A stretch of 31,408 nucleotides of DNA from a virus (IMGVR_UViG_3300017958_000037:1-31408); one strand, 5' to 3'. Shown: positions 20,278-31,408, counted from the first letter of the stretch. Numbers and translations: made by a program. Notes: a model not told the origin generated them from the letters alone.

Positions 20278-20459
20278 GACTTAGGCGCCTTACGCTTTGG
20301 CGCTGCCTTCTTCGGCGCCTTCAGCGCATCCAGCTCCGCATCCATTTTCTGGATTAGCTCTGCAGCATCTCTGCACGCCTTCATCATTGCCTGTGGGTTT
20401 GTGATCCGATGTGGCTGGCTGAGTAGCTGCACAAGGTTTGTTTGTTGGTCGTTTAGCAT
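20274..20459 (-). CDS. Small protein with basic Lys/Ala/Pro tail
   Basis: The 61-residue protein is encoded against the surrounding genes. Residues 1-45 form a helix with AMMKACRDAAELIQKMDAEL. The end LKAPKKAAPKRKAPKS is a histone-like basic tail, suggesting nucleic-acid binding. GGAGG is placed five bases before the ATG, which together with the normal amino-acid make-up supports a real gene. It converges with the ejection gene (four-base overlap), so read-through from the late operon would produce antisense RNA over it. Its promoter is not clear; an AGTTAACT palindrome sits upstream at 20480-20487. Confidence 0.68.
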   Translation of the reverse strand: MLNDQQTNLVQLLSQPHRITNPQAMMKACRDAAELIQKMDAELDALKAPKKAAPKRKAPKS

Positions 20460-20575
20460 ATCTTCCTCCGTTAAATATGAGTTAACTTTTACATGTATAA
20501 CTATTGCAAAGCAAATCTATATTTAGTAGTTTCAACTTGAATGCATACATGTTCCAGCATTCGCCTCTCTTCCCC

Positions 20576-20607
20576 TGCCCTGCGCGAAAGCGTGGGGCAT
20601 TTTTTTT
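20576..20607 (+). terminator. Rho-independent terminator of the late operon
   Basis: Bases 20576-20585 (TGCCCTGCGC) pair with 20590-20599 (GCGTGGGGCA) through ten pairs, two of them G-T, around a stable GAAA tetraloop. Eight T residues follow at 20600-20607. Stem, loop and T-run make this the clearest terminator in the window. It ends + strand transcription from the virion genes and isolates the next promoter just downstream. No matching A-run precedes it, so it should work in one direction only. Confidence 0.93.
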
Positions 20608-20628: not shown

Positions 20629-20657
20629 TTGTACATATGTTAACACTGTGTTAACAA
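20629..20657 (+). promoter_or_regulatory. Early promoter with 19-bp palindromic operator
   Basis: TTGTAC (20629-20634) and TAACAA (20652-20657) are spaced by 17 bases as in a sigma70-like promoter. A perfect inverted repeat, TGTTAACAC-T-GTGTTAACA (20638-20656), fills the spacer and runs into the -10 element. It can also be read as two TGTTAACA boxes 11 bp apart, one helical turn. GTGTTAACAAAATG here is identical to 24687-24700 in front of the ribbon-helix-helix gene. A repressor bound here would block the promoter. The promoter call is by eye; the palindrome is direct sequence fact. Confidence 0.7.
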
Positions 20658-20684
20658 AATGAAGAAAGCAAAAAGGAAATGGAA

Positions 20685-20918
20685 ATGAGATTAGATAAGT
20701 ACACAGCCATCAAAGAATTTTTAGAAGATGTCGGTGGTGCAGATGTTCGTGGCCGTAAGATGGCAGGAATGTTCAAGCGCAGTGAAGTGCGCAGCAAGAA
20801 ACACAACATGCTTGCAGTACGCTGGGATGAACTAGGCAACTGTTTTTGCTTATGCGCAGATGGCATTCGCCGTCAACTAACAGCAAAAGAGCTATTCAGC
20901 GGAAAAGCATTTTATTAA
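20685..20918 (+). CDS. Small early protein of unknown function
   Basis: About 77 residues, starting MRLDKYTAIKEFLEDVGGAD. ATG at 20679 is also in frame, but only two bases separate it from AAAGG; the ATG at 20685 leaves eight and is preferred. The sequence has a helical start, a basic middle (KMAGMFKRSEVRSKKHNMLA) and a beta-like end with two cysteines (NCFCLCADGIRRQL), and may be a small nucleic-acid-binding or host-takeover protein. It is the first gene behind the early promoter, a position often used by small anti-host proteins, but no function can be read from it. Confidence 0.75.
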   Translation: MRLDKYTAIKEFLEDVGGADVRGRKMAGMFKRSEVRSKKHNMLAVRWDELGNCFCLCADGIRRQLTAKELFSGKAFY

Positions 20919-20924
20919 TCAACA

Positions 20925-20940
20925 GGGGGCTACAGCCCCT
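20925..20940 (+). other. Short hairpin between early genes
   Basis: GGGGGC (20925-20930) pairs with GCCCCT (20935-20940) around TACA, five G-C pairs and one G-T. There is no T-run, so it is unlikely to end transcription alone; it may be a pause or mRNA-processing signal between the two early genes. Confidence 0.4.
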
Positions 20941-20957
20941 ACACACGGAGAAGAGAT

Positions 20958-21527
20958 ATGGCATACGACCCCACACATGAATACGAGCACCGCTACGAGC
21001 CAGCCATCCGCGCACGCAAGATGGCTAACGCCGCGCGCACAAAGCAACGCGAATGGATCGCGGCTGACGATCGCGCACAAGAAATCATCGACTTTCTAGA
21101 AGGCTACCCAGCGGAGCAAGACGCAGGCTTCTTCTGCGCGGTAAAGTATGGCATCCTTACCTTTGGCAAGCCAACCGACACCATGCGTGACAAGATGGTC
21201 GAGATATTAGACGATCGCAAAGCTAAGGCCGCTGAGTGGGCGGCTCAGGATGCCAAGTCATCATGGATTGGTGAGGTAGGTATGCGCGGTCGATTTACCT
21301 TTAATGTCACAATTGTCTCCAGTTGGGATGGCATGTATGGAACCACATATCTGCACGTTTGCCGTGACGATAATGGCAACATCATAATTTACAAAGGTTC
21401 AAACCCTTGGAACGCTGGCGACAAGATCACATGCATGGCCAAAGTGAAGGCGCATGAGCTGCGCGAAGGCGTCAAACAGACCGTCATCCAACGCCCCACA
21501 AAGGTAGAGATCAATGTGGCCCAGTAA
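20958..21527 (+). CDS. Protein with C-terminal OB-fold-like domain
   Basis: The 189-residue protein is basic and helical at the N-terminus (about 1-95, with repeated alanine/arginine residues). From about residue 105 it has a beta-domain starting WIGEVGMRGRFTFNVTIVSS, then GMYGTTYLHVCRDDNGNIII and a closing MAKVKAHELREGVKQTVIQR. That arrangement (VGxxGxR, YGTTxL, GNIIxY, VKxHExxxGVKQTVIxR) is a recurrent phage and bacterial domain which I interpret as OB-like and nucleic-acid-binding. A clear GGAG precedes the ATG. Its role could be in early gene control or DNA metabolism; no catalytic motif is visible. Confidence 0.75.
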   Translation: MAYDPTHEYEHRYEPAIRARKMANAARTKQREWIAADDRAQEIIDFLEGYPAEQDAGFFCAVKYGILTFGKPTDTMRDKMVEILDDRKAKAAEWAAQDAKSSWIGEVGMRGRFTFNVTIVSSWDGMYGTTYLHVCRDDNGNIIIYKGSNPWNAGDKITCMAKVKAHELREGVKQTVIQRPTKVEINVAQ

Positions 21528-21609
21528 CCTAGTAGATTTTATCAAAGCGCTGCACAACGTCGATGTTGTGTGGCGACCAACAACACCGGAAGAGGAGTGT
21601 CCGTTTTGA
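21514..21609 (+). CDS. 31-residue early protein
   Basis: A very short gene, ATG at 21514, with AAGGTAGAG upstream. It encodes MWPSNLVDFIKALHNVDVVW followed by RPTTPEEECPF. It overlaps the preceding gene by 14 bases, and its TGA overlaps the TTG start of the next gene (TTGA), a classic coupled junction. This overlap is the main reason to think that it is translated. No function known; two tryptophans and an amphipathic helix suggest a protein-protein contact peptide. Confidence 0.5.
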   Translation: MWPSNLVDFIKALHNVDVVWRPTTPEEECPF

Positions 21610-21824
21610 ATAGAGAAGAAATATTACACCAGATCGCATCTGAAGAACGCTTTATAACCAAGATGCAGCAAAAATATGATACAATAGCATCACTGGAAAC
21701 AGGGGTCCGTAGCTCATCAGTTAGCACAGACCTTGCAATGAACATGATAGCCAGAGACAACGCAGAAGGGCGAATAGAGGCGCTAAAGGCTAAGTTAGTG
21801 GAGCTAGACAATGAAAACACATGA
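21606..21824 (+). CDS. Small coiled-coil protein with TTG start
   Basis: A 72-residue helical protein beginning (M)NREEILHQIASEERFITK and ending EALKAKLVELDNENT. A GTG at 21570 is in frame but lies inside the preceding 31-residue gene. I chose TTG at 21606, with AGAGGAG nine bases before it and the TTGA overlap with the preceding stop. Heptad-like spacing suggests a coiled coil. Its stop overlaps the start of the next tiny gene by 14 bases. Function unknown. Confidence 0.62.
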   Translation: MNREEILHQIASEERFITKMQQKYDTIASLETGVRSSSVSTDLAMNMIARDNAEGRIEALKAKLVELDNENT

Positions 21825-21909
21825 AGCGTTTCTATTAGCCACTGTGTGCGCGCTGGGAGGCGCCAGCGTAGCGCACGCAATCGAAGTATTTTTGTTTGGA
21901 GTTATGTGA
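21811..21909 (+). CDS. 32-residue single-span membrane peptide
   Basis: ATG at 21811 gives MKTHEAFLLATVCALGGASV then AHAIEVFLFGVM. A 15-18-residue hydrophobic stretch and an AHA signal-peptide-like boundary suggest a small membrane or exported peptide. It lies in a tightly packed operon: it begins inside the preceding gene, and its TGA shares bases with the next ATG (TGATG). Such tiny phage membrane peptides can affect superinfection, but nothing here proves that. Confidence 0.5.
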   Translation: MKTHEAFLLATVCALGGASVAHAIEVFLFGVM

Positions 21910-22199
21910 TGTCTTTTACTTGGCCTAAAAATTTAATTCCCAGCGAAGATCGCTGGTTGGTATGTCTAGAGGAAATTAAGGAGATATGCGCAAGAGAAAA
22001 TAAAATTTTACAGAAGAAAGTAAACCTGTCTAACGCGCAACGCGCCGCCGGACTAAAGGGTGGCCGCAAGCGTAACGAGCGTCATTACCGGATCATCAGC
22101 GAGATGGCCGGAAATGGATATACGAATCATCAGATCGCGCGTAGGCTGGGTATCACATTACAGCGTTTATACGAGTTCAGGTCTAAGCACAAAATATAA
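21909..22199 (+). CDS. Small helix-turn-helix protein
   Basis: A 96-residue protein starting MSFTWPKNLIPSEDRWLVCL. The frame is open further upstream, but the ATG at 21909 overlaps the stop of the preceding gene as TGATG. After a basic AGLKGGRKRNER segment it has RIISEMAGNGYTNHQIARRL followed by GITLQRLYEFRSKHKI. This is a good helix-turn-helix of the resolvase/Hin type (helix, turn with G-Y-T, recognition helix after the GI). A DNA-binding regulator is plausible. No recombinase catalytic domain is present. Confidence 0.66.
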   Translation: MSFTWPKNLIPSEDRWLVCLEEIKEICARENKILQKKVNLSNAQRAAGLKGGRKRNERHYRIISEMAGNGYTNHQIARRLGITLQRLYEFRSKHKI

Positions 22200-22233
22200 A
22201 CGCATAACGGGAACCTCAGCGGAGGACGTAGCC

Positions 22234-22593
22234 ATTCCCTATGCATGTAAGGAGCGCCAAAGGGCGTATAATAAAGAATATCGCAAACGATATTACGAAA
22301 AAAATAAAAAGAAAATAAAGAAAAGGATATACGACAACCGGCGCAAGCAGAGAGAAAAGTTTCGTGAATGGAAGTCGACATTAGAGTGCGTAAAGTGTGG
22401 TCATTCACACGTCGCGGCTCTAGACTTCCACCACGTCGTAAAGAAGGCAGATAATCTGCGCGTGAATGATCTGGTGCGGAACGGTAGATTTGGCAAAGCA
22501 TACAAGGAAGCCGCCGAGCGCTGCATTGTCCTTTGCGCGAATTGCCATAGAGCGCACCATTGGGATGAAAAGGAGGCAAAAAATGGAACTTGA
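22234..22593 (+). CDS. HNH endonuclease with ATT start
   Basis: The 119-residue protein starts (M)PYACKERQRAYNKEYRKRYY, the usual opening of a small phage HNH family. A lysine-rich helix is followed by a zinc-binding HNH motif: C52-x2-C55, LDFHHV with H66-H67, and C101-x2-C104 followed by H105 and H108. Such proteins nick or cut DNA; many are free-standing homing endonucleases, some act in packaging. No ATG, GTG or TTG occurs in frame nearby. ATT at 22234 lies eight bases behind GCGGAGGAC, and codes exactly where the family begins. The alternative is an upstream ATG (22114 or 22060) inside the HTH gene, giving a foreign-looking N-terminus. Confidence 0.78.
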   Translation: MPYACKERQRAYNKEYRKRYYEKNKKKIKKRIYDNRRKQREKFREWKSTLECVKCGHSHVAALDFHHVVKKADNLRVNDLVRNGRFGKAYKEAAERCIVLCANCHRAHHWDEKEAKNGT

Positions 22594-22780
22594 TGAAGAT
22601 ATCTTGATCGCAGAAAAAATAGTAAATCGCGCCGAGCGCGGCTTACCACAAGACCGCTGGATGCGCGGCGACGCAGAACAATTGTCACTGGTGCGAGCCT
22701 ACATAATGACAAAGAATGCACTGTTTCAAATGCATCAAGAGATGATTAAACGCGGCTCAGACGCGATGGATATTGATTAA
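22583..22780 (+). CDS. Small acidic-helical protein
   Basis: A 65-residue protein, MELDEDILIAEKIVNRAERG onward, helical. The ATG at 22583 has AGGAGG six bases upstream and overlaps the HNH stop. The frame extends upstream to 22466 but that part is inside the HNH gene. Its end overlaps four bases of the convergent endolysin gene. No known motif; last gene of the early + strand block. Confidence 0.65.
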   Translation: MELDEDILIAEKIVNRAERGLPQDRWMRGDAEQLSLVRAYIMTKNALFQMHQEMIKRGSDAMDID

Positions 22781-23253
22781 ACGATCAGCTCAAAGTGAGG
22801 CATATCATTGAAACCGCGTTTCCCCTGCGAGCGCCGTAGGTCATGGTATGCCTCCCAACACTCTTTCATGTCAGTTTGCCAAAGTCGGCAGTCGTATGGA
22901 TACTTGTGATCCGGAACAGCCCAAGCCGCACCCCAACACAATGCGACGTCACAAACCTTAGCAGCTTGCTGCATGGCATCAGCGATTGGGAAGTATGCGC
23001 TCTCTTCCCAGCGGATCCCCGTGACGCTGTCGTAGGCGCCGAGATCGACCGCCAGCCCGTCGATGTGTTTTGACTTCATGGTCTGGCTATTGCCCTTCTG
23101 CACAAGCTCACGCTGACGTTCAATGGAACGTAAACCTTCCAGCACTGTGAAGTCGGCTTTAGAGATGCCAATAGCATATTTAACTACGGCGACTAGACGT
23201 TCATCAACGCCTTCAAGGCGCGACAGGCTACGCTTTCCTAACTTAAAACTCAT
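22777..23253 (-). CDS. Endolysin, M15-type peptidase
   Basis: The 158-residue protein has the zinc-peptidase signature of M15 endolysins (L-alanyl-D-glutamate or D-Ala-D-Ala peptidase type, like that of phage T5): SKHIDGLAVDLGA with H63 and D70, and PHFEL with H153. The opening GVDERLVAVVKYAIGISKAD and FTVLEGLRSIERQRELV match the family. It cuts peptide bonds of peptidoglycan at the end of infection. The frame extends beyond 23253, but the ATG there has GGAGG upstream and overlaps the stop of the holin gene (ATGA), so coupled translation is likely. No signal peptide is seen, so it depends on a holin. Confidence 0.9.
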   Translation of the reverse strand: MSFKLGKRSLSRLEGVDERLVAVVKYAIGISKADFTVLEGLRSIERQRELVQKGNSQTMKSKHIDGLAVDLGAYDSVTGIRWEESAYFPIADAMQQAAKVCDVALCWGAAWAVPDHKYPYDCRLWQTDMKECWEAYHDLRRSQGKRGFNDMPHFELIV

Positions 23254-23600
23254 TTCTTTCCTCCTAATCCTCGCATGGTTCTTATTCCGAAGCTGGCGGC
23301 AATCGACGCATACATGCCCCACTGAACCCAGAGGGGGGTTGTCTCAAGGTTAGCAAATCCCTGTGCCATGGTATCTTGTAGGCTAGGCACAAAGTTAGCA
23401 GCAAGGATAAGAACAAACACGATAGTCCAAAGTTCGTCCTTCCATGAGTTTTGTGCAGAACGTATAGCTTCAAGCTCCCAATCAATCTCGCCAGTTGCCT
23501 GTTTAAGTTTGATCTCTGCATTGGCTTTTTGAACCGCCGTTTTCCCATCAACCCAAGCAGTCGCTAGACCGCCTAGACTTCCTATAATCTGACCAATCAT
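23250..23600 (-). CDS. Holin, GTA-type three-TM family
   Basis: The 116-residue protein matches the 3TM holin family known from alphaproteobacterial gene-transfer agents and marine phages. A short amphipathic start (MIGQIIGSLGGLATAWVDGK) is followed by a charged helix. Then comes SWKDELWTIVFVLILAANFV as the first clear membrane span, and WVQWGMYASIAASFGIRTM as the last. Holins form lesions that release the endolysin. It is located directly before the endolysin, with ATGA overlaps on both sides. The ATG at 23600 lacks a strong Shine-Dalgarno, which fits translational coupling. Confidence 0.85.
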   Translation of the reverse strand: MIGQIIGSLGGLATAWVDGKTAVQKANAEIKLKQATGEIDWELEAIRSAQNSWKDELWTIVFVLILAANFVPSLQDTMAQGFANLETTPLWVQWGMYASIAASFGIRTMRGLGGKK

Positions 23601-23812
23601 ACAGAACCCCGATCTGTTTTAGCTTCTTTGTTCATCCAGATACCAAAGCATCCTGTCAGTGCGCCCATGCAGATCGAAACCAATCCGCTTTGCTGGACAC
23701 TTGGATCAGGTAAAGACATGTACCAGTGGACGCTTTGGTAAGTTAAAATCGTCACGACGAGCATCATCAGCCGTGGGAAAATTTTGTATTCGTCAATCAC
23801 TGTTGCTGGCAT
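23597..23812 (-). CDS. Two-TM membrane protein of the lysis block
   Basis: About 71 residues with two membrane spans (FPRLMMLVVTILTYQSVHWY and SGLVSICMGALTGCFGIWM) and short charged ends, typical of small holin or holin-regulator proteins. A TTG at 23824 is also in frame, but AGGA abuts it. The ATG at 23812 is better placed, 12 bases after AAAAGGA, and leaves a normal leader behind the promoter at 23842-23869. The stop overlaps the next start (ATGA). It could be a second holin, antiholin or pinholin; the sequence does not decide. Confidence 0.74.
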   Translation of the reverse strand: MPATVIDEYKIFPRLMMLVVTILTYQSVHWYMSLPDPSVQQSGLVSICMGALTGCFGIWMNKEAKTDRGSV

Positions 23813-23841
23813 ATTTATCTGCAATCCTTTTATTTGACGTG

Positions 23842-23869
23842 ATTATAACCACTTTTCCGTTTTTGTCCA
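23842..23869 (-). promoter_or_regulatory. Sigma70-like promoter of the lysis operon
   Basis: On the - strand TGGACA (23869-23864) and TATAAT (23847-23842) are spaced by 16 bases, with 5/6 and 6/6 consensus matches. Transcription would begin near 23835, just ahead of the AAAAGGA Shine-Dalgarno of the 2TM gene. It would drive the 2TM protein, holin and endolysin. A fragment of the adjacent repeat (ACCACTTTTCC, 23849-23859) lies in its spacer. Confidence 0.72.
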
Positions 23870-23880
23870 AAACAGTGTAC

Positions 23881-23930
23881 TTTACCACTTTTTGCCACTT
23901 TTTGCCACTTTTTGCTACTTTTTACCACTT
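23881..23930. repeat. Five helically phased 10-bp direct repeats
   Basis: Five consecutive units: TTTACCACTT, TTTGCCACTT, TTTGCCACTT, TTTGCTACTT, TTTACCACTT. Unit length equals one helical turn, so the same face repeats. The array lies about 12 bases upstream of the -35 of the lysis promoter and contains the stop codon of the upstream - strand gene. It may be a binding array for a regulator or an AT-rich UP-like/curved element, or an iteron-like replication element. Confidence 0.85.
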
Positions 23931-24374
23931 TTCCATGTAGACGCCCAAACCGTAAATTGCCGCGATCACACCGCCAAAAGCAAGGACGCCGGCTATGATA
24001 TATCCTATTAGCTCTATCATTTCTTCGCGCTGTTGTTGTGCAACGCGCTCTGCATCCTTACGCGCTTTGCGAGCTTGCGCTTGATACTTTAGCCAATCGT
24101 CTTTCAGCCCAATACGTCCTTGGTATACCATCAAAAGCTCTAAATCTTTTTCAGCTTGCTTTATGTCTTCGAGCGCCAAGAATTCTTCTAGGTCTGTCTC
24201 CACCTGTCTGGAGAACGGGTTGTTCTTACGCTTCTGAAGTTTCTTGTGGAGGTCATCTTTAGACTGCACCATCGTGCCAATAGACTGCGCACAGGAAGCT
24301 ATTTCCCGACCCGCTTTTACAGTCGCTTTTACGGTGGCATACGCCGCGTTGAATGCGGCAAGCTCGGCCAGCAT
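23922..24374 (-). CDS. Helical protein with C-terminal membrane anchor
   Basis: The 150-residue protein starts LAELAAFNAAYATVKATVKA and continues with SKDDLHKKLQKRKNNP, an alpha-helical body (DLEEFLALEDIKQAEKDLEL), and a basic stretch. The end is one long membrane span (MIELIGYIIAGVLAFGGVIA) followed by YGLGVYMEKW. This arrangement is common in small genes next to lysis genes of marine podoviruses, but I know no proven function. It lies with lysis genes on the same strand and is a membrane-anchored protein. AAGGAG lies seven bases ahead of the ATG. The stop is inside the first 10-bp repeat. Confidence 0.75.
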   Translation of the reverse strand: MLAELAAFNAAYATVKATVKAGREIASCAQSIGTMVQSKDDLHKKLQKRKNNPFSRQVETDLEEFLALEDIKQAEKDLELLMVYQGRIGLKDDWLKYQAQARKARKDAERVAQQQREEMIELIGYIIAGVLAFGGVIAAIYGLGVYMEKW

Positions 24375-24377
24375 GGC

Positions 24378-24620
24378 TCACTCCTTGAACGCCTTGACCT
24401 CATATCCCGCGCGCTGGACGCGGTTCATTATGGCTTTCAGCATCTCGTGGTTTTGTGTAATCATATCGTTAGTGTGTTTCATCTCACTCTCTATAACGGC
24501 GGTACGATTGTTGAGGTCCACAAGCGTTGATGTGGTCCAAGTTGTCCACTCTTTAAACACAAAGCCTAAGCTGGCAAAAACGCCGGCAACAATGATACCC
24601 GTTAAAACTTTCTGATCCAT
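24378..24620 (-). CDS. Membrane-anchored coiled-coil protein, spanin-like
   Basis: The 80-residue protein has an N-terminal membrane span (VLTGIIVAGVFASLGFVF) followed by a charged helix with heptad spacing (LVDLNNRTAVIESEMKHTND onward). This is the plan of inner-membrane spanins, which link membranes at the end of lysis, but no partner lipoprotein with a lipobox is visible, so the name stays tentative. It could instead be a holin-associated protein. There is no strong Shine-Dalgarno before the ATG at 24620. First gene of the lysis-strand block. Confidence 0.65.
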   Translation of the reverse strand: MDQKVLTGIIVAGVFASLGFVFKEWTTWTTSTLVDLNNRTAVIESEMKHTNDMITQNHEMLKAIMNRVQRAGYEVKAFKE

Positions 24621-24667
24621 GAAACCAGCTCACTAAATTTATTTACAACATATCACAACGACCGCTA

Positions 24668-24696
24668 TTGCGCTAGTTTATCATCCGTGTTAACAA
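24668..24696 (+). promoter_or_regulatory. Promoter and TGTTAACA box of the RHH gene
   Basis: TTGCGC (24668-24673) and TAACAA (24691-24696) are 17 bases apart, mirroring the early promoter at 20629. The TGTTAACA box (24688-24695) covers the -10 region, and the fourteen bases at 24687-24700 are identical to 20648-20661. A repressor made by the next gene could thus bind both places. The opposite-strand gene starts at 24620, so this 98-base gap is a divergent control region; I see no convincing promoter for the - strand. Confidence 0.6.
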
Positions 24697-24718
24697 AATG
24701 TGAAACGGAGGATAGACC

Positions 24719-24883
24719 ATGGTAATTAAGCAGATAGGGCCGCGAATTCGACAGGGCGTTTATGACGCCTTGCAGGCTTGTAGTAAAGAAGAACGGGTCA
24801 GCATGTCTGTGCTGGTAGAAAAAGCAATTAAAGATCTATTAGAAAAGAAGGGCTACGACCTTAAAAATGATAGCGGGAATTGA
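24719..24883 (+). CDS. Ribbon-helix-helix regulator
   Basis: A 54-residue protein. It shows the ribbon-helix-helix plan of Arc/CopG: a short strand (KQIGPRIRQ), helix one (GVYDALQACSKEE), a turn with RVSMS, and helix two (VLVEKAIKDLLEKKG). RHH proteins bind DNA as dimers or tetramers and usually autoregulate. GGAGG is seven bases ahead of the ATG. TGTTAACA boxes lie on its promoter and at the early and terL genes, making this the obvious binding candidate. It overlaps the next gene by 17 bases. No HTH or other domain is present. Confidence 0.75.
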   Translation: MVIKQIGPRIRQGVYDALQACSKEERVSMSVLVEKAIKDLLEKKGYDLKNDSGN

Positions 24884-25310
24884 TTGTGGATATCGCACCG
24901 GCGGCGTTGCGCTAGTCGGAGATGATTGGGCCGAGGTGCATGACTTACCCGTTTACGATGAAGGCGGAGTTGATGTCGCGGCGCTGATGGATATTCTTAC
25001 ATCAGTAGATCAGGTTGACCATATATACATAGAGAAGCAGCAAGCGATGCCTAAGCAGGGCGTTAGCTCGACATTTAAACTTGGCTACGCATTTGGGCAG
25101 ATTGTGACGACGTGTGCGTTATCGCGCACCCCATATTCACTTGTGACGCCAAACAATTGGAAGAGATCCTTAAACCTACCGCGCGACAAAGACGCGGCAC
25201 GCCGGCTGGCGCAGCAATGGTTTCCGGATTTATCCTCGCAACTAAAAAGGAAGAAGGACGAGCACAGGGCGGAAGCCTTGCTGATCGCATTATTTGGGAA
25301 GGGAAAGTAA
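24867..25310 (+). CDS. RuvC-like Holliday junction resolvase
   Basis: The 147-residue protein belongs to the RuvC/RNase H-like nucleases. Motif one has D6 in IAGIDCGYRTGG, motif two has E56 in HIYIEKQQAMP, and the C-terminal motif KKDEHRAEALLIAL carries D131 and E136. A KLGYAFGQIVT helix and VTPNNWKRSL match other phage members. It should cleave branched DNA formed during recombination or replication and help resolve concatemers before packaging. It starts inside the RHH gene and its stop overlaps the next start (TAATG), so RHH, resolvase and exonuclease form one transcript. The start lacks a strong Shine-Dalgarno. Confidence 0.87.
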   Translation: MIAGIDCGYRTGGVALVGDDWAEVHDLPVYDEGGVDVAALMDILTSVDQVDHIYIEKQQAMPKQGVSSTFKLGYAFGQIVTTCALSRTPYSLVTPNNWKRSLNLPRDKDAARRLAQQWFPDLSSQLKRKKDEHRAEALLIALFGKGK

Positions 25311-26104
25311 TGCCTGTAATATTGGACATGCCGAATGCGGAATATCACGCATCGACGCATTTATCATCATCCGGCGCTAAAACAATTGCGCTGCAGTCTC
25401 TAGCAGACTTTAAATATGCAGAGCGCAAGGAAACGCCGGCACTTTTGATCGGATCTGCCGCCCACACGCTTACGTTTGAGCCGCACCTTGTTGACACAAT
25501 TTGGCAATGGGATGGCCGACGCGCTGGGAAAGATTACAACGAATTCAAAGAAAGCGCAGACGCTGCCGGCGCGATCGTATTGAATACAGCGGAATACGAT
25601 AAGGTAAACCGAATTGCTGAGGCGGTGCGATCAAACCAAGCCGCCGCGGAGCTGTTAGCCGGTGACCTTGTGTGCGAGGCCAGCGTTTTCGCAACAGATC
25701 CAGACACAAAAGTTGACATGCGAGCCCGCCCAGACGGGTGGCGTCAGGATATCGCGTGCCTACTGGATCTGAAAACCACGATTGACCCGTCGCCGGAGGG
25801 GTTTGCAAAGCAGGCCGCAAACCTTGGCTACCACATCCAAGAAAGTTTTTATCGCAGGGTGCTGGAGCTAGACGGCCACGAAGTAGACGGTTTTATTTTC
25901 ATAGCAGTTGGAAAGGAAGCACCATACAAAGTTGGAATTTACGAACTCGACGCCGAAAGCCTGATGGAAGGGCAAATGGCCGTCCAGTACGCGCTGGAGC
26001 AGTATGCAATAGCGCAAGCAAACAACGAGTGGGGTTACAGCTACGGGGAGTTGATGACGATCCGTATCCCGCCTTACTCGTTCAAATTCACAGAGGCAAA
26101 TTAA
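25310..26104 (+). CDS. RecE-type PD-(D/E)XK exonuclease
   Basis: The 264-residue protein begins PVILDMPNAEYHASTHLSSS with a SSSGAKTIA helix and LLIGSAAHTLTFEP, the opening of exonuclease VIII-like phage nucleases. The PD-(D/E)XK core is visible: D136 in KVDMRARPD, D153-x-K155 in CLLDLKT and Q177 in YHIQESFY. It should resect dsDNA from 5' ends to produce 3' single strands for annealing. The frame continues far upstream, but the ATG at 25310 overlaps the resolvase stop (TAATG). The next gene, a putative ssDNA-binding protein, would be its natural partner. Confidence 0.88.
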   Translation: MPVILDMPNAEYHASTHLSSSGAKTIALQSLADFKYAERKETPALLIGSAAHTLTFEPHLVDTIWQWDGRRAGKDYNEFKESADAAGAIVLNTAEYDKVNRIAEAVRSNQAAAELLAGDLVCEASVFATDPDTKVDMRARPDGWRQDIACLLDLKTTIDPSPEGFAKQAANLGYHIQESFYRRVLELDGHEVDGFIFIAVGKEAPYKVGIYELDAESLMEGQMAVQYALEQYAIAQANNEWGYSYGELMTIRIPPYSFKFTEAN

Positions 26105-26120
26105 GTCAAGGAGACACATC

Positions 26121-26714
26121 ATGCCAATATCATTCGGATCTAGCGACAATACGAACACCGGAATTTACATTCGAGGAAATCTCCCCCAAAATAAGTGGTG
26201 GGCGAAAACGGAGGCCGGCGATGAAACTATCGACATGGAAAGAGGCTTTGCTATCGACATCAAAGAAGTTGTCTTTGGCTGGCTACATATCGACATTGGT
26301 GTGCGCGATTGGCAACCATGGCCGTCGACATCTCAGCGCACTGAGAAACCATCTGAAAATCACAAGCAAGGTTTCGAGGTTAAGTGCTGGCTTGCTGATG
26401 GCCGCGAGGCCGATTTTTCTGGGAATAGCTATGGCTTGGGGCAGTTTATCGCAAAGCTGTACAACCAAGCTGAGCAAAGTCCGGAATTCAATCAGGGCAA
26501 GATACCGGTTGTGCAGATTACGTCGTCGCAGCCGGTCGTCGTAGGCAAGGGAACAAGCTACGACGTCGGATTTAACATCCGCACTTGGATTGACAAGCCA
26601 TCGTCAAATTCTGCACCTGTACAAGAACCTGTACAGAATTGGGCGCCACCAACGACGCCTGCGCCTGCGCCTGAGCCGGCGCCTGCAGCCGAGGGCAACA
26701 ACTTCGGGTTCTAA
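26121..26714 (+). CDS. Putative ssDNA-binding protein
   Basis: A 197-residue protein with a beta-rich core (about 10-155, including KQGFEVKCWLADGREADFSG and SYGLGQFIAKLYNQA) and a proline/alanine-rich linker. It ends in EGNNFGF, which resembles the short aromatic tail of SSB proteins but lacks the standard DIPF. The position between exonuclease and primase-helicase fits a DNA-binding replication or annealing protein. AAGGAG lies before the ATG. I do not recognise a named family, and an alternative is a RecT-like or other annealing partner. Confidence 0.55.
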   Translation: MPISFGSSDNTNTGIYIRGNLPQNKWWAKTEAGDETIDMERGFAIDIKEVVFGWLHIDIGVRDWQPWPSTSQRTEKPSENHKQGFEVKCWLADGREADFSGNSYGLGQFIAKLYNQAEQSPEFNQGKIPVVQITSSQPVVVGKGTSYDVGFNIRTWIDKPSSNSAPVQEPVQNWAPPTTPAPAPEPAPAAEGNNFGF

Positions 26715-26727
26715 CAAAAGTAACAAC

Positions 26728-26761
26728 GCAAATGACGTGTTTTTCTAAACATGTCATTTGC
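26728..26761. repeat. 15-bp inverted repeat between two replication genes
   Basis: GCAAATGACGTGTTT (26728-26742) and AAACATGTCATTTGC (26747-26761) pair fully except one G-T, around TTCT. No T-run follows, so it is not a simple terminator. It lies 13 bases after the stop of the ssDNA-binding gene and 24 bases before the start of the primase-helicase gene. It may be an operator, an mRNA-processing site, or a translation control for the following gene. An in-frame ATG at 26732 lies in the repeat but is not the likely start. Confidence 0.8.
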
Positions 26762-26785
26762 ACTACGACGCATAGGGAAGAGAAC

Positions 26786-28987
26786 ATGTCACAATTATAT
26801 TTTGAAAAGGTTGTCGACAGCGCCGTCAGGGACGTTGCCGCATCCATCAAAGGCGGAAGAAACGAAAACCTAAATAAAGCTGCATTCTCAATCGGTCGCC
26901 ACGCGCACCTACATTCAGACGGCATCGACGGCGCGATCTTGCAGCTACACAGCGCGGCTAAGCAGATCGGCCTGAACGACATAGAGATCAAGGCTACCAT
27001 TGGATCCGGATTTAAGCGCGGCGGCGAAAACCCAAAGCAATTAGAGAACACGGATATACAGCCGTATATACCAAGTGAACTCGACAGTTTAATTGCGCGT
27101 CTGGCGCGCCAAGACTTGATCCTGCAGGACGAGGAAACGAGACAGCAGAAGATAGAGCGCGCGCAGAAGACTTGGGAGCGCTCCGTACCCATCACACGCG
27201 ATAACTTAGATAACGTGCGCCCAGCGCTCTTATATCTACGCTCACGCGCGCTCAAGGCGTCTACGGTGGTAGGCGTGGCGCGGTACAACCCAAATTTCCA
27301 CGAAGGTCCGGCGATTATCTTTCCAGCGTTCACGCCAGATGGAGATGTCGAAGGAATTCAGGGCGTACTTCTAACGCAAGACGGAAAGAAGCGCGAGCAC
27401 AACGGCATTGTGAAGTATTCACGCGGCGTCATAGCTGGCAATGTGATGCAGATAAACGAGATGCAGCCAGACAGGCCAATCATCATCACAGAGGGGCCAG
27501 AGGACGCGCTCAGCGTGCGTCAGGCGTGTGGGGACGAGGCGACGGTGATCTGTACGTTTGGCAAGGCTGGTATGGCGACGTATGTGCCGCCGCGGGCGTC
27601 AGATGTGACGATCTGCGCGGATCCGGATTTGGATGTGGAGAAATGTGCCGACGTCCTGTCCGGTGACGGTAGCACCGCGGTGTATGTCGTGCGCTTCAAC
27701 GCACTTGACATCGAAGGCGTGTCCGACGCCAACGATTATCTCCGAGCTCTTGGAAAAGACAAGCTGCGTGAAGCGCTCGCAACTGCTAAACCATACAAAG
27801 TTGAGGTGCAAGAACAAAAAGAGCTTGAGCGCCAGTGGCCAACAGAATTCGAGTTTGTTGACCCTGCGTCAATCCCGCCACGCCGCTGGATCTACGGGCG
27901 CCACTACATCAGAGGCTACGTCAGCGTGCTTGCGTCAATGGGCGGCGTCGGTAAGACGTCTATGCAGAACGTGGAGAGCGTTGCAATTTGCACAGGCAAG
28001 CCGCTGCTAGAGGAGGCCGTGCATGAGAGCGTCAACGTCTGGGTCATCAACGGCGAGGATCCGCTGGAGGAGATGCAGCGCAGATATGCGGCAATCTTTA
28101 TCAAGTACAACATCAAGCCGGAGGATATACGCGGGAAGCTGTTTCTTGACGCCGGACGTGAGCTTGGCATCCAGTTTGCGATAAGTACCCGCGACGGCAT
28201 CCTGACAGACGAAGACATGCTGCAGTACATGGTCGAAAAAATAAAACGTCACAACATCGGGATGGTTTTCATCGACCCGTGGGTTGGCTTCAATGACATC
28301 AACGAAAACGACAACGTGCAGATGAACAAAGCCGTCGCCGCAGCGCGCTGGGTCGCGGATCAGACCGGAGCTGCGATTGTGTTGACGCACCATGTACGCA
28401 AGACAAACGGCGACGAAGTCACAGTTGATAGCGTGCGCGGCGCCGGATCTCTGATCGGTGCAGCCCGTGCGGCGCGCGTCATAAACAAGGTTACCAGCGA
28501 ACAGGTAAAGAAAATCGGCATTAGCGAAGAAGATGCGCGCGGCCTGTTCAGGGTTGACGACGGCAAGGCAAACCTAGCGCCGCCGGCAGATAAGGCTCTG
28601 TACCGCCGTATGGAGGGCGTGGAGCTGCCAAACGGCGAGTGGGTGGGCGTGTGTGTGCCGTTCAAAATGCCTGACCTGTTCGACGGCGTATCGGTGCGCC
28701 ACGCAATGGACATGCAGCGCATGGTCGCGGCGCGGGCGGAGCGTGACGAGCCGTTCCTGTGGAGCGCGCAGGCGAGCGCCGCGAATTGGGCGGGGGCTGC
28801 GGTTGCGTCGATACTGGATCTAGACTTGGAGAAGCCGCACGAAAAGGCGAAGGCTAAGTCAATACTTGAGACATGGATAAAGACAGACGTGCTACGCAAG
28901 GAGGATTGGCATGACAAGCGACAAGGTAAAGAACGTCCGGCGGTATACGTCGGGGAGTGGATCAGAGCATCGGAGGTGGGACAGTGA
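26786..28987 (+). CDS. Primase-helicase with Toprim and RepA-like ATPase domains
   Basis: The 733-residue protein has an N-terminal helical domain (NLNKAAFSIGRHAHLHSDG, GSGFKRGG) resembling primase C-terminal helices. A Toprim-like domain has E236-G-P-E-D240 and D279-P-D281-L-D283. A RecA-like ATPase has G386-GVGKT391 as Walker A, MVFIDP with D497 as Walker B, and THHVRK. It should prime and unwind phage DNA with a borrowed polymerase. I see no zinc finger. The frame begins at 26732, but the ATG at 26786 has GGAAGAG before it. A GTGA overlap links it to the next gene. Confidence 0.88.
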   Translation: MSQLYFEKVVDSAVRDVAASIKGGRNENLNKAAFSIGRHAHLHSDGIDGAILQLHSAAKQIGLNDIEIKATIGSGFKRGGENPKQLENTDIQPYIPSELDSLIARLARQDLILQDEETRQQKIERAQKTWERSVPITRDNLDNVRPALLYLRSRALKASTVVGVARYNPNFHEGPAIIFPAFTPDGDVEGIQGVLLTQDGKKREHNGIVKYSRGVIAGNVMQINEMQPDRPIIITEGPEDALSVRQACGDEATVICTFGKAGMATYVPPRASDVTICADPDLDVEKCADVLSGDGSTAVYVVRFNALDIEGVSDANDYLRALGKDKLREALATAKPYKVEVQEQKELERQWPTEFEFVDPASIPPRRWIYGRHYIRGYVSVLASMGGVGKTSMQNVESVAICTGKPLLEEAVHESVNVWVINGEDPLEEMQRRYAAIFIKYNIKPEDIRGKLFLDAGRELGIQFAISTRDGILTDEDMLQYMVEKIKRHNIGMVFIDPWVGFNDINENDNVQMNKAVAAARWVADQTGAAIVLTHHVRKTNGDEVTVDSVRGAGSLIGAARAARVINKVTSEQVKKIGISEEDARGLFRVDDGKANLAPPADKALYRRMEGVELPNGEWVGVCVPFKMPDLFDGVSVRHAMDMQRMVAARAERDEPFLWSAQASAANWAGAAVASILDLDLEKPHEKAKAKSILETWIKTDVLRKEDWHDKRQGKERPAVYVGEWIRASEVGQ

Positions 28988-29430
28988 ATAGGCCAATGTA
29001 CGAAACCAAAGAAGACTTAGCAAACGAGCGCCGGATCCAAAATATAATTGAGAAGCGCTACGGATGCTTGCTGCGTAAGATGCCGATCAAGCTGCAGCTA
29101 GACTTCATGGCGTGGAAGGATGGCAAGGCAATCGGCTTCGTCGAGGCGAGGCAGCGCAAGACGCCTATGATGAAGTACCCGACATACATGATCTCGCTGC
29201 ACAAGGTTCTCATGGCGCAGCAACTCACGGCGACCACAAATTTGCCGTGTTACCTAGCCGTGCAGTTCAGCGATAAGCTGGCGATGTGTAAGCTGCCGCC
29301 GGATGACCCAAATAATTATGTGGACTTCGGAGGCAGCGATCGACGTGACGATCCACAAGACTACGAGCCTATGCTATACTTTGACATGTCTAACTTTAAG
29401 GAGGTGACACATGACAATGCCAATACGTGA
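28984..29430 (+). CDS. PD-(D/E)XK-like nuclease-fold protein
   Basis: The 148-residue protein starts at GTG (28984), overlapping the stop of the primase-helicase, with GGAGG upstream. It has an N-terminal helix with ERRIQNIIEKRYG, then D40 in LQLDFMAW and E54-A-R56 in GFVEARQRK. YPTYMISLHK and beta strand CYLAVQFSDKLAMCKL follow. This is the strand order of small PD-(D/E)XK nucleases, but the last position is arginine instead of lysine, so activity is uncertain. Role may be DNA processing during replication or recombination, or it may have lost catalysis. Confidence 0.6.
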   Translation: MNRPMYETKEDLANERRIQNIIEKRYGCLLRKMPIKLQLDFMAWKDGKAIGFVEARQRKTPMMKYPTYMISLHKVLMAQQLTATTNLPCYLAVQFSDKLAMCKLPPDDPNNYVDFGGSDRRDDPQDYEPMLYFDMSNFKEVTHDNANT

Positions 29431-29659
29431 AATCGAAGAAGACGAAAACAAGCTGGAGCTTGGGCGCATCGTATGGGACGAGGAAATCGGAGGCGCCGCG
29501 ATCGAGTGGTGCGCAGATGAAATGCCAATGATGTCATCAGCGGCGCTTGACTTGGCATTCGTAATGGAGGTGCTGCAGGGCATCGACATAGATGTGTCTA
29601 TGGCCAAGGCGCTTAATCAGGCGCTCCTTCTAGAGGGTAGCAATGGCACGATACACTAA
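29411..29659 (+). CDS. Small acidic protein with extreme Shine-Dalgarno
   Basis: An 82-residue acidic protein (about eighteen D/E against four K/R). The start is MTMPIREIEEDENKLELGRI, then WDEEIGGAAIEWCADEMPMM and a helix. TAAGGAGGTGA (29397-29407) is an eleven-base match to the full anti-Shine-Dalgarno and is six bases from ATG, the strongest ribosome site in the window. High expression is expected. Acidic early proteins can mimic DNA or inhibit host enzymes, but no known inhibitor motif is seen. It overlaps the end of the previous gene by 20 bases. Confidence 0.72.
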   Translation: MTMPIREIEEDENKLELGRIVWDEEIGGAAIEWCADEMPMMSSAALDLAFVMEVLQGIDIDVSMAKALNQALLLEGSNGTIH

Positions 29660-29660
29660 T

Positions 29661-29812
29661 CCTAACCTTCCTAACTTGTGGTGAGGAAAGGTGAGGAAGG
29701 CTAGGAGAATTAGCGTTTCAACCTTCCTCCTTACTACTTGCATATATTATATGCAGGTAAGGAGGATGAGGTGAGGCTAGGAAAAGTAAGTGAGGAAAGA
29801 GGAAGGAATATC
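29661..29812 (+). promoter_or_regulatory. Structured purine-rich leader
   Basis: Between two genes are two possible stem-loops and many GGTGAGGA-type elements. Stem A pairs 29661-29672 with 29694-29705 (twelve pairs with one mismatch). Stem B pairs CCTCCTTAC (29726-29734) with GTAAGGAGG (29757-29765), with an inner palindrome TGCATATA-T-TATATGCA (29739-29755). Stem B hides an AAGGAGG. The next ATG at 29813 has its own GAGGAAGGA. It may act as an RNA control or processing region; no terminator T-run is present. Confidence 0.6.
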
Positions 29813-30394
29813 ATGGCTAAGAAGAGAGTGAACTACAAGGACGCCAAGGCGAAGGGTACGCTGGCGGATCATGGTACTAAGATCAGTGCTGGCGTCTGGG
29901 GGCAGTTACGTCCACTAGATGAAAAGGCTAAGGAGAAGATAGCGAAGTGGGGTGATACGTTGCCTAACCTTGTGCATCCGGATCTGGCGGGGAGGTTTGA
30001 GGCTGCGTATGAAGCGCTGCACGACCGTGTCATGAGTAATGATGTCGTCGGCACAAATCAGATTGCGACGCAGCTTATGAGAGCGTGGGACGTGCTGGAG
30101 AAGTCTGCGATGGATGCAGGGCATAAGCCGCTACCGCCTCATGCGTATTGTGTGGAGATCGACGGAGATATCGTGTGCTTCGCATTGCATGGGTGGGCAG
30201 AGTTGCGGCGCGAGCATCCAAAGTGGATTGTGTATAGCTTTGAGGATGCCGCGCGTATCATCAGGTTCGATTGGACCGAGACATTTCTCAACAATGCATT
30301 CAACGCATTTCCGGACGCAAAGGTGACGCGCATGGTGCGTGACGGCGATGACCGGATTAACTGGGACTTAGGTGGAGATGAGATACCATGGTAA
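29813..30394 (+). CDS. Unknown protein preceding the small terminase
   Basis: The 193-residue protein begins MAKKRVNYKDAKAKGTLADH. The frame also runs from TTG 29738, but that part is the structured leader; GAGGAAGGA before 29813 sets the start. It has a basic N-terminus, a helical middle (RFEAAYEALHDRVMSNDVVG, QLMRAWDVLEKSAMDAG), then beta-rich YCVEIDGDIVCFALHGWAEL. The acidic end is DRINWDLGGDEIPW. The position before terS suggests a packaging or DNA-metabolism role. I do not recognise the family. It overlaps terS by seven bases. Confidence 0.7.
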   Translation: MAKKRVNYKDAKAKGTLADHGTKISAGVWGQLRPLDEKAKEKIAKWGDTLPNLVHPDLAGRFEAAYEALHDRVMSNDVVGTNQIATQLMRAWDVLEKSAMDAGHKPLPPHAYCVEIDGDIVCFALHGWAELRREHPKWIVYSFEDAARIIRFDWTETFLNNAFNAFPDAKVTRMVRDGDDRINWDLGGDEIPW

Positions 30395-30825
30395 AGGCAG
30401 TCGGTAAGGCGAAGGTCGCTGAGCTAGAGAAGATTGGAGAGGACCAGATCCTCGAAGATATCGCGCAAGGTAAGAGCGTGCGACAGATCATGCGTGAGCA
30501 TAACATTGGGTACAAGATATTCGGCGCGTGGTTAGACGCGAAGGTTGGACGGCGTGACAGATATCACGCCGCACAACTTGAGGCTGGTCACTACTATGCC
30601 GAGCGAGCGGTCGAGACTGCGCAGAACGCTGACCCTGCGACAGTCAACGTGTCTCGCTTGCAAGTCGATACGGACAAGTGGATGGCGTCTAAGCTGAACG
30701 CTCAGTACGATACGAGGCAGCGTGACGTCGCAATCAACATCAGCGTCAACGACTTGCACGCGCAAGCGGCTGCGTTGCTTGGCGACGTGATCGACGGTGA
30801 GGCGGAGGACGTGAGCGATGGTTGA
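30388..30825 (+). CDS. terS: Small terminase subunit
   Basis: The 145-residue protein has an N-terminal DNA-binding helix-turn-helix region (QILEDIAQGKSVRQIMREHN and GYKIFGAWLD, about residues 21-51), a central helical segment (HYYAERAVETAQNADP), and the terminal signature DKWMASKLNAQYDTRQRDVA, typical of small terminases. It recognises the packaging site and stimulates TerL. The stop codon is about 370 bases ahead of terL, with noncoding sequence between. GGAGATGAG precedes the ATG. Confidence 0.85.
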   Translation: MVKAVGKAKVAELEKIGEDQILEDIAQGKSVRQIMREHNIGYKIFGAWLDAKVGRRDRYHAAQLEAGHYYAERAVETAQNADPATVNVSRLQVDTDKWMASKLNAQYDTRQRDVAINISVNDLHAQAAALLGDVIDGEAEDVSDG

Positions 30826-30852
30826 GCGCGAAAACGCGGATCGGTCCACAGT

Positions 30853-30874
30853 CGCGCACGCGCGTGCGCGCGTA
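30853..30874. repeat. Alternating Pu/Py GC palindrome, Z-DNA-like
   Basis: CGCGCACGCGCGTGCGCG (30853-30870) is a perfect 18-bp palindrome, and alternation of pyrimidine and purine continues to 30874 (22 bases). It is unlike the surrounding sequence and may form Z-DNA or a cruciform, or mark a packaging or cutting site. Confidence 0.85.
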
Positions 30875-30990
30875 ACTGAACAAGCGTTCAATTGCAACCG
30901 GAATTGTTGCCGCGCTGCAGCAAGAACACTAGATGTTGTGGTTTGCGCGTAGTGCATAGGTTATTGTTCATACGCATCTCCTGTAAGTCG

Positions 30991-31020
30991 TTGAAAAGTA
31001 ACGCTTTTCACATAGATAAT
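30991..31020 (+). promoter_or_regulatory. Promoter-like element with inverted repeat before terL
   Basis: TTGAAA (30991-30996) and GATAAT (31015-31020) are spaced by 18 bases. TGAAAAG-N5-CTTTTCA (30992-31010) is a 7-bp inverted repeat covering the -35 and spacer, so a protein bound there would block it. It would give a long leader before terL. Identified by eye. Confidence 0.45.
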
Positions 31021-31192
31021 CACGAATTTAACATAATTCATCTTATACGACTTTGCTTTAGCCATGCGGTTTTTGCATACCTCGGCCTCCGGATCGCTTT
31101 CGGACCCCCCCTTTGTTCGATCGGGCCGGTGCAAATGCACATGACCCCATCACACCTCCCCGTCAAAAAATTTTACAAAAACAGGTGTTAAC

Positions 31193-31408
31193 ATGATCAC
31201 GCAAAAAAAATCTCAGGAAAACCCGTTCATCACGTTGATGCAGCGATACCGTGACGACCCCGTCGCGTTTGCTCAAGAGGTCATCGGGATCCAGCCTGAC
31301 GAGTGGCAAACGGAGCTGTTAGACGCTATCGCCGCTCCGGCGGTACGGCGCGTCACTGTTCGCTCTGGCCACGGCGTCGGCAAATCGACTGCAGTGGCCA
31401 TGGCGGCT
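31193..31408 (+). CDS. terL: Large terminase subunit, N-terminal part (cut by right edge)
   Basis: The first 72 residues are present, with the frame still open at the last base. It starts MITQKKSQENPFITLMQRYR and has the motor motif Walker A as G59-HGVGKST66, preceded by the adenine-binding region with IQPDEWQTELLDAI (the Q of that motif). TerL is the ATP-driven packaging motor and nuclease. Gene order terS, terL, portal fits: the portal remnant at base 1 should be the next gene. The ATG is touched by a TGTTAACA box, and a weak AGG lies upstream. Confidence 0.88.
   Translation, partial: MITQKKSQENPFITLMQRYRDDPVAFAQEVIGIQPDEWQTELLDAIAAPAVRRVTVRSGHGVGKSTAVAMAA

Follow-up and report, generated by a model that had tools for sequence, protein, structure and literature searches.

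A small ribbon-helix-helix protein as the probable autorepressor of early promoters with paired palindromic boxes in a lineage of uncultured phages

Arc of the Salmonella phage P22 is a small ribbon-helix-helix (RHH) protein that contacts DNA through residues Gln9, Asn11 and Arg13, uses half-sites placed 11 base pairs (bp) apart, and serves the immunity region of a temperate phage. Comparable proteins occur in archaeal viruses: F55 of SSV1, an RHH protein of 6.3 kDa, binds tandem repeats both at early promoters and at the promoter of its own gene, SvtR is a repressor of its own promoter with its best site at a structural gene, and a concentration-dependent switch between activation and repression has been reported for AvtR (PMC5569661). 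Two RHH dimers of RelB sit on one face of the DNA, with strict half-site spacing (PMC2812701). In the early regulon of SIRV2, a shared regulatory sequence marks changing anti-defence genes (PMC11065993). Here we analyzed a virus record from IMG/VR (IMGVR_UViG_3300017958_000037:1-31408), a stretch of 31,408 bases hereafter called the window, which carries four copies of the 8-bp palindrome TGTTAACA and a gene for an RHH protein of 54 amino acids. Comparison with related phages leads us to propose, with a probability of about 0.82, that this protein is an autorepressor that shuts early promoters through pairs of TGTTAACA boxes spaced 11 bp apart. RHH autoregulators with repeated sites are already known; what is new is the case in an uncultured lineage for which we found no close cultured relative.

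The original prediction placed TGTTAACA boxes at 20638, 20649, 24688 and 31186, and the sequence bore this out. Given that the box is a palindrome, a single count serves both strands, and it returned these four exact copies and no others in the window. As also predicted, the first two boxes form a perfect odd-length palindrome (TGTTAACA-CTG-TGTTAACA, 20638-20656) with its boxes 11 bp apart, the 14 bases GTGTTAACAAAATG are common to 20648-20661 and 24687-24700, and the RHH gene starts at 24719. The claim that all boxes are noncoding stands for 20638, 20649 and 24688 but not for 31186, the last base of which is the A of the terL ATG at 31193. Missed at that stage was a degenerate partner, TGTGAAAC at 24699-24706, 11 bp downstream of the 24688 box. 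The chance expectation of the exact box, assuming equal base composition, is about 0.5 per window compared with the four seen, and there are 20 boxes with one mismatch compared with 13.9 expected. Four exact copies in a single window are by themselves a modest excess, and the strong evidence is comparative. The features of the two promoters and the RHH gene are:

20629 to 20634, plus strand: -35-like hexamer TTGTAC, 14 bp ahead of the second early box (from sequence; TTG at this offset recurs in relatives)
20638 to 20645, plus strand: predicted first operator box of the early promoter, TGTTAACA (relatives conserve the 11-bp tandem at this operon)
20649 to 20656, plus strand: predicted second operator box of the early promoter, placed at -10 (from sequence and relatives)
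24668 to 24673, plus strand: -35-like hexamer TTGCGC, 14 bp ahead of the RHH box (from sequence)
24688 to 24706, plus strand: predicted operator of the RHH operon, TGTTAACA-AAA-TGTGAAAC, 11-bp spacing (weight-matrix score 14.6, near the 95% shuffle maximum)
24719 to 24883, plus strand: RHH gene, proposed autorepressor, 54 amino acids (Pfam RHH_3; PHROG; AlphaFold2 model; PDB matches)

Relatives (loci L005-L093) were fetched by scans with the primase and the RuvC-like protein, and statistics were computed on 21 dereplicated related phage records (655 kb, the window included), many of which are partial. In this set, TGTTAACA is seen 65 times against 8.8 expected under a second-order Markov model, and no other 8-mer has so large an excess. 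Pairs of GTTAAC no more than 60 bp apart are separated by 11 bp in 17 cases and by 22 bp in two, with none at any other spacing. When up to two mismatches are allowed, partners of boxes number 42 at a distance of 11 bp (22 at +11 and 20 at -11); the next offset, -10, has six, all of them at terL.

In most relatives, ruvC is preceded, usually with an overlap, by a small gene for an RHH protein 37-64% identical to that of the window. In most of them TGTTAACA or a close variant lies 20-60 bp ahead of the RHH start, with a second and more degenerate copy 11 bp downstream of it (TGTGAAA, TGTTAAA, TGCTAAC). Scored with at most four mismatches in 16 positions, the 11-bp tandem is present upstream of 49 of 53 distinct RHH homologues, whereas the other offsets from 8 to 30 give 0-15. 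The tandem is kept in diverged groups in which the flanks have changed, for example as GCGTTAACTATGCGTTAACC in L040, and an RHH profile finds the gene in all 21 records, including the very diverged G021 and G022 (weak scores; operators lie close upstream of the gene). The original prediction named as contrary evidence relatives that keep the RHH gene but have lost the boxes; this is not the pattern at the RHH promoter, but it is found at terL, as described below. In one diverged group (L163, L172, L134 and L140), two tandem operators lie close together upstream of the RHH gene, and one of them seems to face a divergent gene.

The spacing also sets the lineage apart within the whole viral collection, where the exact tandem occurs in 43 stretches at 10 bp, 110 at 11 bp, and 91 at 12 bp. 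Lineage membership, defined by core genes at 45% identity or more, applies to 29/110 of the 11-bp stretches but to 0/43 and 0/91 of those at 10 and 12 bp (Fisher p 4e-5 and 4e-9). A held-out contig from a metagenome-assembled genome (MAG), L333, found in a later RuvC search, fits this picture, with TTGCAC-N3-box-N3-box twice and the RHH-operon version once. Conservation in relatives, the exact 11-bp spacing, these controls and the held-out record together give good support to the predicted tie between an Arc/CopG-type RHH protein and closely spaced boxes, and to its predicted control of the RHH gene's own unit and the early unit.

The RHH protein matches Pfam RHH_3 (4.9e-6, above the cut-off) and PHROG 3180, “Arc-like repressor” (5.2e-9). 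Its AlphaFold2 model, based on 34 aligned sequences, has two helices (residues 12-25 and 29-43) at a mean predicted local distance difference test score of 85; DSSP did not assign the strand in this monomer. The leading PDB matches of the model in Foldseek are RHH proteins, among them operator-bound Arc. VIA-align places residues 1-48 onto Arc 5-52 without gaps (offset 4, Z 6.0, root-mean-square deviation 2.2), and SvtR superposes on the model with Z 6.3. In the alignment, Q5 and G7 never vary and R9 is conserved to at least 90%; by the ungapped superposition, these residues would correspond to Gln9, Asn11 and Arg13 of Arc. The Pfam match, the helices and the leading structural matches thus place the protein in the RHH (Arc/MetJ/CopG) superfamily, and the conserved residues would, in the model, occupy alternating base-contacting positions of the strand. 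Arc-type use of two sites one turn apart is likewise matched by the 11-bp tandem at RHH promoters and by the spacing of GTTAAC pairs.

Like Arc, the protein appears to combine an RHH fold of similar size, with a model that superposes over 48 residues, with a two-site operator one helical turn apart over a promoter and with presumptive autoregulation. Unlike Arc, to which it is about 17% identical with no evidence of orthology, its gene heads a replication/recombination operon and its boxes are exact palindromes at several promoters. We rejected an assignment as a P22 Arc orthologue, given that there is no immunity-region setting beside ant/mnt and that the gene heads a ruvC-exonuclease-primase operon. 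An RHH antitoxin of a toxin-antitoxin pair was also rejected: no toxin is adjacent, and the downstream neighbour is the RuvC-like resolvase gene, usually overlapping. Another DNA-binding candidate, the helix-turn-helix (HTH) open reading frame (ORF) at 21846, was set aside with homologues in only 10/21 records, compared with 21/21 for the RHH gene. This HTH-like ORF (21846-22199) overlaps an HNH endonuclease ORF (22060-22593) in another frame, and the two have homologues in 10 and 12 of the 21 records, respectively.

How the boxes are placed relative to promoters suggests what the protein does. TTGC occurs 20 bp ahead of the box start at 19 sites in the 21 records, the commonest offset, and a -35-like motif at about this distance puts the box at the -10 position. 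A protein bound over such a promoter would block it, and from this we infer repression. In the proposed mechanism, an RHH dimer would read the 8-bp palindrome TGTTAACA, and two dimers, on boxes separated by about one helical turn (11 bp), would sit on a single face of the DNA as a dimer of dimers. The boxes would cover the spacer and the -10 region of host-type promoters, so that bound RHH protein would block RNA polymerase. Made alongside the early replication genes, the protein would limit itself and turn the early promoters down as infection proceeds. The predicted regulon comprises the RHH-ruvC-exonuclease-primase operon (operator at 24688), the early accessory operon (operator at 20638/20649), and a reverse-strand operon beyond terL.

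The RHH gene starts the replication operon, and the RHH proteins ParG and omega act in partition, which could suggest that the boxes are iteron-like replication or partition sites, bound by the replication machinery or by the RHH protein in a structural role. We give this idea almost no credence, considering that the boxes are distributed among several promoters, keep a fixed phase with a -35-like motif and are followed by short 5' leaders, and that no long iteron array was seen. SvtR and AvtR are also small viral RHH regulators with several genomic sites, although they use other recognition sequences and archaeal promoters. F55 differs in maintaining lysogeny in an archaeal virus and in reading ATAGATAG repeats; we found no sign of lysogeny in the window lineage.

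Several observations weigh against the autorepressor model. The -10 hexamer within the box matches TATAAT poorly, for which reason the promoters are putative, and a generic sigma-70 scan did not flag the RHH and early promoters on the plus strand. Weak -10 matches are also expected at activator-dependent promoters, and RHH activators exist; the protein might therefore bind the boxes but mainly activate, or switch between activation and repression by concentration in the manner of AvtR. This seems to us improbable, as a protein on the boxes would occupy the spacer and -10 region, a position that normally blocks polymerase, and as the RHH gene has a box of its own, which is usually a sign of autorepression.

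Also unfavourable is that 81 of the 110 viral contigs with the exact 11-bp tandem fall outside the lineage; thus, the tandem alone is not diagnostic, and the lineage is one that uses the 11-bp form. A host transcription factor, borrowed by the phage, could account for tandems in so many non-lineage contigs if it bound the boxes in place of the RHH protein, and it would suit promoters that look host-type (TTGC -35-like) and palindromic 8-mers, which are also host operator material. We judge such a factor very unlikely, given the tandem upstream of nearly all RHH homologues. Further, no TGTTAACA was found in four RHH-less phages with a 48-51% identical capsid (Sinorhizobium phage phiM5, Methylophilales phage Venkman, MW202711 and MW202496), a control that is weakened by the fact that these phages may have other hosts. 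Four viral contigs in which no lineage gene was found (L136, L192, L206 and L232) contain TGTTAACA-N3-TGTTAACA, some right behind TTGACA- or TTGCGC-like sequence. In contigs without lineage genes, this operator may be read by other regulators.

The remaining difficulties concern the protein and the counts. Foldseek E-values for the RHH model are not significant (best 0.1), as is expectable for so small a fold, and by sequence the protein matches solved structures only weakly (best E 0.004). The sequences counted in relatives are related by descent, so the counts are not independent and the contrast between spacings is their useful part. By eye, L045 has no convincing operator, and a few other RHH homologues score weakly.

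The fourth exact box of the window behaves differently from the others:

31186 to 31193, plus strand: TGTTAACA at the terL start, in start-codon context (overlaps the ATG at 31193)

This box has neither a -35-like motif nor an 11-bp partner. It is exact, and its context AGGTGTTAACATG recurs unchanged in 11 of the 21 records, as well as in several shorter loci, which would be compatible with a true third RHH operator that acts as a roadblock over the terL start. However, the flanks are equally conserved within the clade, so the conservation of the box proves nothing. In relatives with 78-86% identical TerL start regions, ordinary ribosome-binding sequences (TTTAGGAGACCCCCATG or CGGAGCCCCCACATG) replace it, and it is absent in G004, L034, G020, L040 and others, all of which still have the RHH gene, operators elsewhere, and TerL. 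With a Shine-Dalgarno sequence in its place in relatives that keep the RHH gene, a third operator is unlikely, and the 31186 box is probably translation-start context. The predicted RHH circuit in front of three transcription units is supported for the early unit and the RHH gene's own unit, and is not supported for terL. Between terS and terL there is a noncoding element (31129-31165; GGTGCAAATGCAAATGACC...CCACGCACCCCC in relatives), a possible packaging site or late promoter, that is kept even where the terL box is missing.

The surroundings of the early promoter include a further, weaker site on the other strand:

20274 to 20459, minus strand: small gene behind the weak reverse operator, 61 amino acids (homologues in 17/21 records, window included)
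20469 to 20487, minus strand: weak candidate tandem operator, reverse complement AGTTAACT-CAT-ATTTAACG, 11-bp spacing, ahead of gene 20274-20459 (weight matrix; relatives)
20576 to 20599, plus strand: intrinsic terminator at the end of the structural gene operon, directly ahead of the early promoter (10-bp stem, then eight T; same position in relatives)
20679 to 20918, plus strand: first gene of the early accessory operon, 79 amino acids (ORF)

The reverse tandem scores 10.1 with the weight matrix, below the 95% shuffle maximum of 15.2, and alone is not significant. Ten other records have this arrangement in front of homologues of the 61-amino-acid gene, and the site probably belongs to the regulon. 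In L087, a 56% homologue of the first early accessory gene likewise has a TGTTAACA box, about 50 bp ahead of it. No tandem operator was seen ahead of the structural genes of the window. Beyond terL, several relatives have operators ahead of reverse-strand genes, and the near-identical records L006 and L013 place a reverse operator past the window end (L006:7200; reverse complement TAGTTAACTTAATGTTAACAG); by this comparison, the window's own phage has a predicted reverse operator there. The original prediction included neither this operator nor the weak reverse tandem at 20469-20487. The minus-strand gene behind the L006 box at 7200 encodes a 190-amino-acid protein, and the HEMAH motif of its homologue in G002 suggests a SprT-like zinc protease. 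No Pfam family was found for genes behind reverse operators, the L006 protein having been tried as a 120-amino-acid piece only.

The RHH operon continues with the following genes:

24867 to 25310, plus strand: RuvC-like Holliday junction resolvase, overlapping the RHH gene (PHROG 1770, 1.7e-27)
25310 to 26104, plus strand: exonuclease VIII-like/DUF3799 gene, with a start codon that is not settled (PHROG 412, 7.9e-74; Pfam DUF3799)
26121 to 26714, plus strand: conserved gene of the replication operon (homologues in 20/21 records)
26732 to 28987, plus strand: primase/helicase (Pfam Toprim_3 and AAA_25)

The gene at 26121-26714 has no family match in Pfam or PHROG, and its position suggests a single-stranded DNA-binding protein. 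Elsewhere in the window, an ORF of 1,810 amino acids (4526-9958) is probably the gene for a tail fibre or another appendage.

In 15 records there was no family match to a tyrosine integrase or a serine resolvase, and the RuvC query found a single bacterial-genome contig, a MAG contig. Together these results suggest, from records that are partial, that the phage is non-integrating. Among named phages, there was no megablast match to the window, RuvC (best match 40%) and the primase have only distant matches, and the capsid reaches 51%; we found no named phage with the window's RHH gene. For 20 of the 25 papers that contain the TGTTAACA string, titles and abstract openings pointed to unrelated uses.

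The first genes behind the operators comprise 14 clustered RHH genes, compared with mostly singletons elsewhere, and the non-RHH ones are nearly all mutually unrelated. An early repressor and a shared regulatory sequence ahead of poorly conserved early genes are also features of Aca proteins and the SIRV2 early regulon, although Aca8 is described as a predicted winged helix-turn-helix protein (PMC11065993). With a conserved RHH operon and other first genes that vary across nearly all relatives, in the manner of the SIRV2 early regulon, the operator could be a lineage-wide tag of early host-takeover or anti-defence genes. We offer this by analogy, as a tentative idea that falls somewhat short of an even chance. 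If it is true, scanning for TTGC-box-N3-box promoters would uncover new counter-defence genes in uncultured phages.

For a lineage without a close cultured relative that we could find, a proposed regulator, its recognition sequence, its target genes and a spacing rule are now in hand. These allow the early genes to be read from sequence and give a handle on the accessory early genes. More generally, comparison alone can link short palindromes that recur in raw viral sequence to a regulator.

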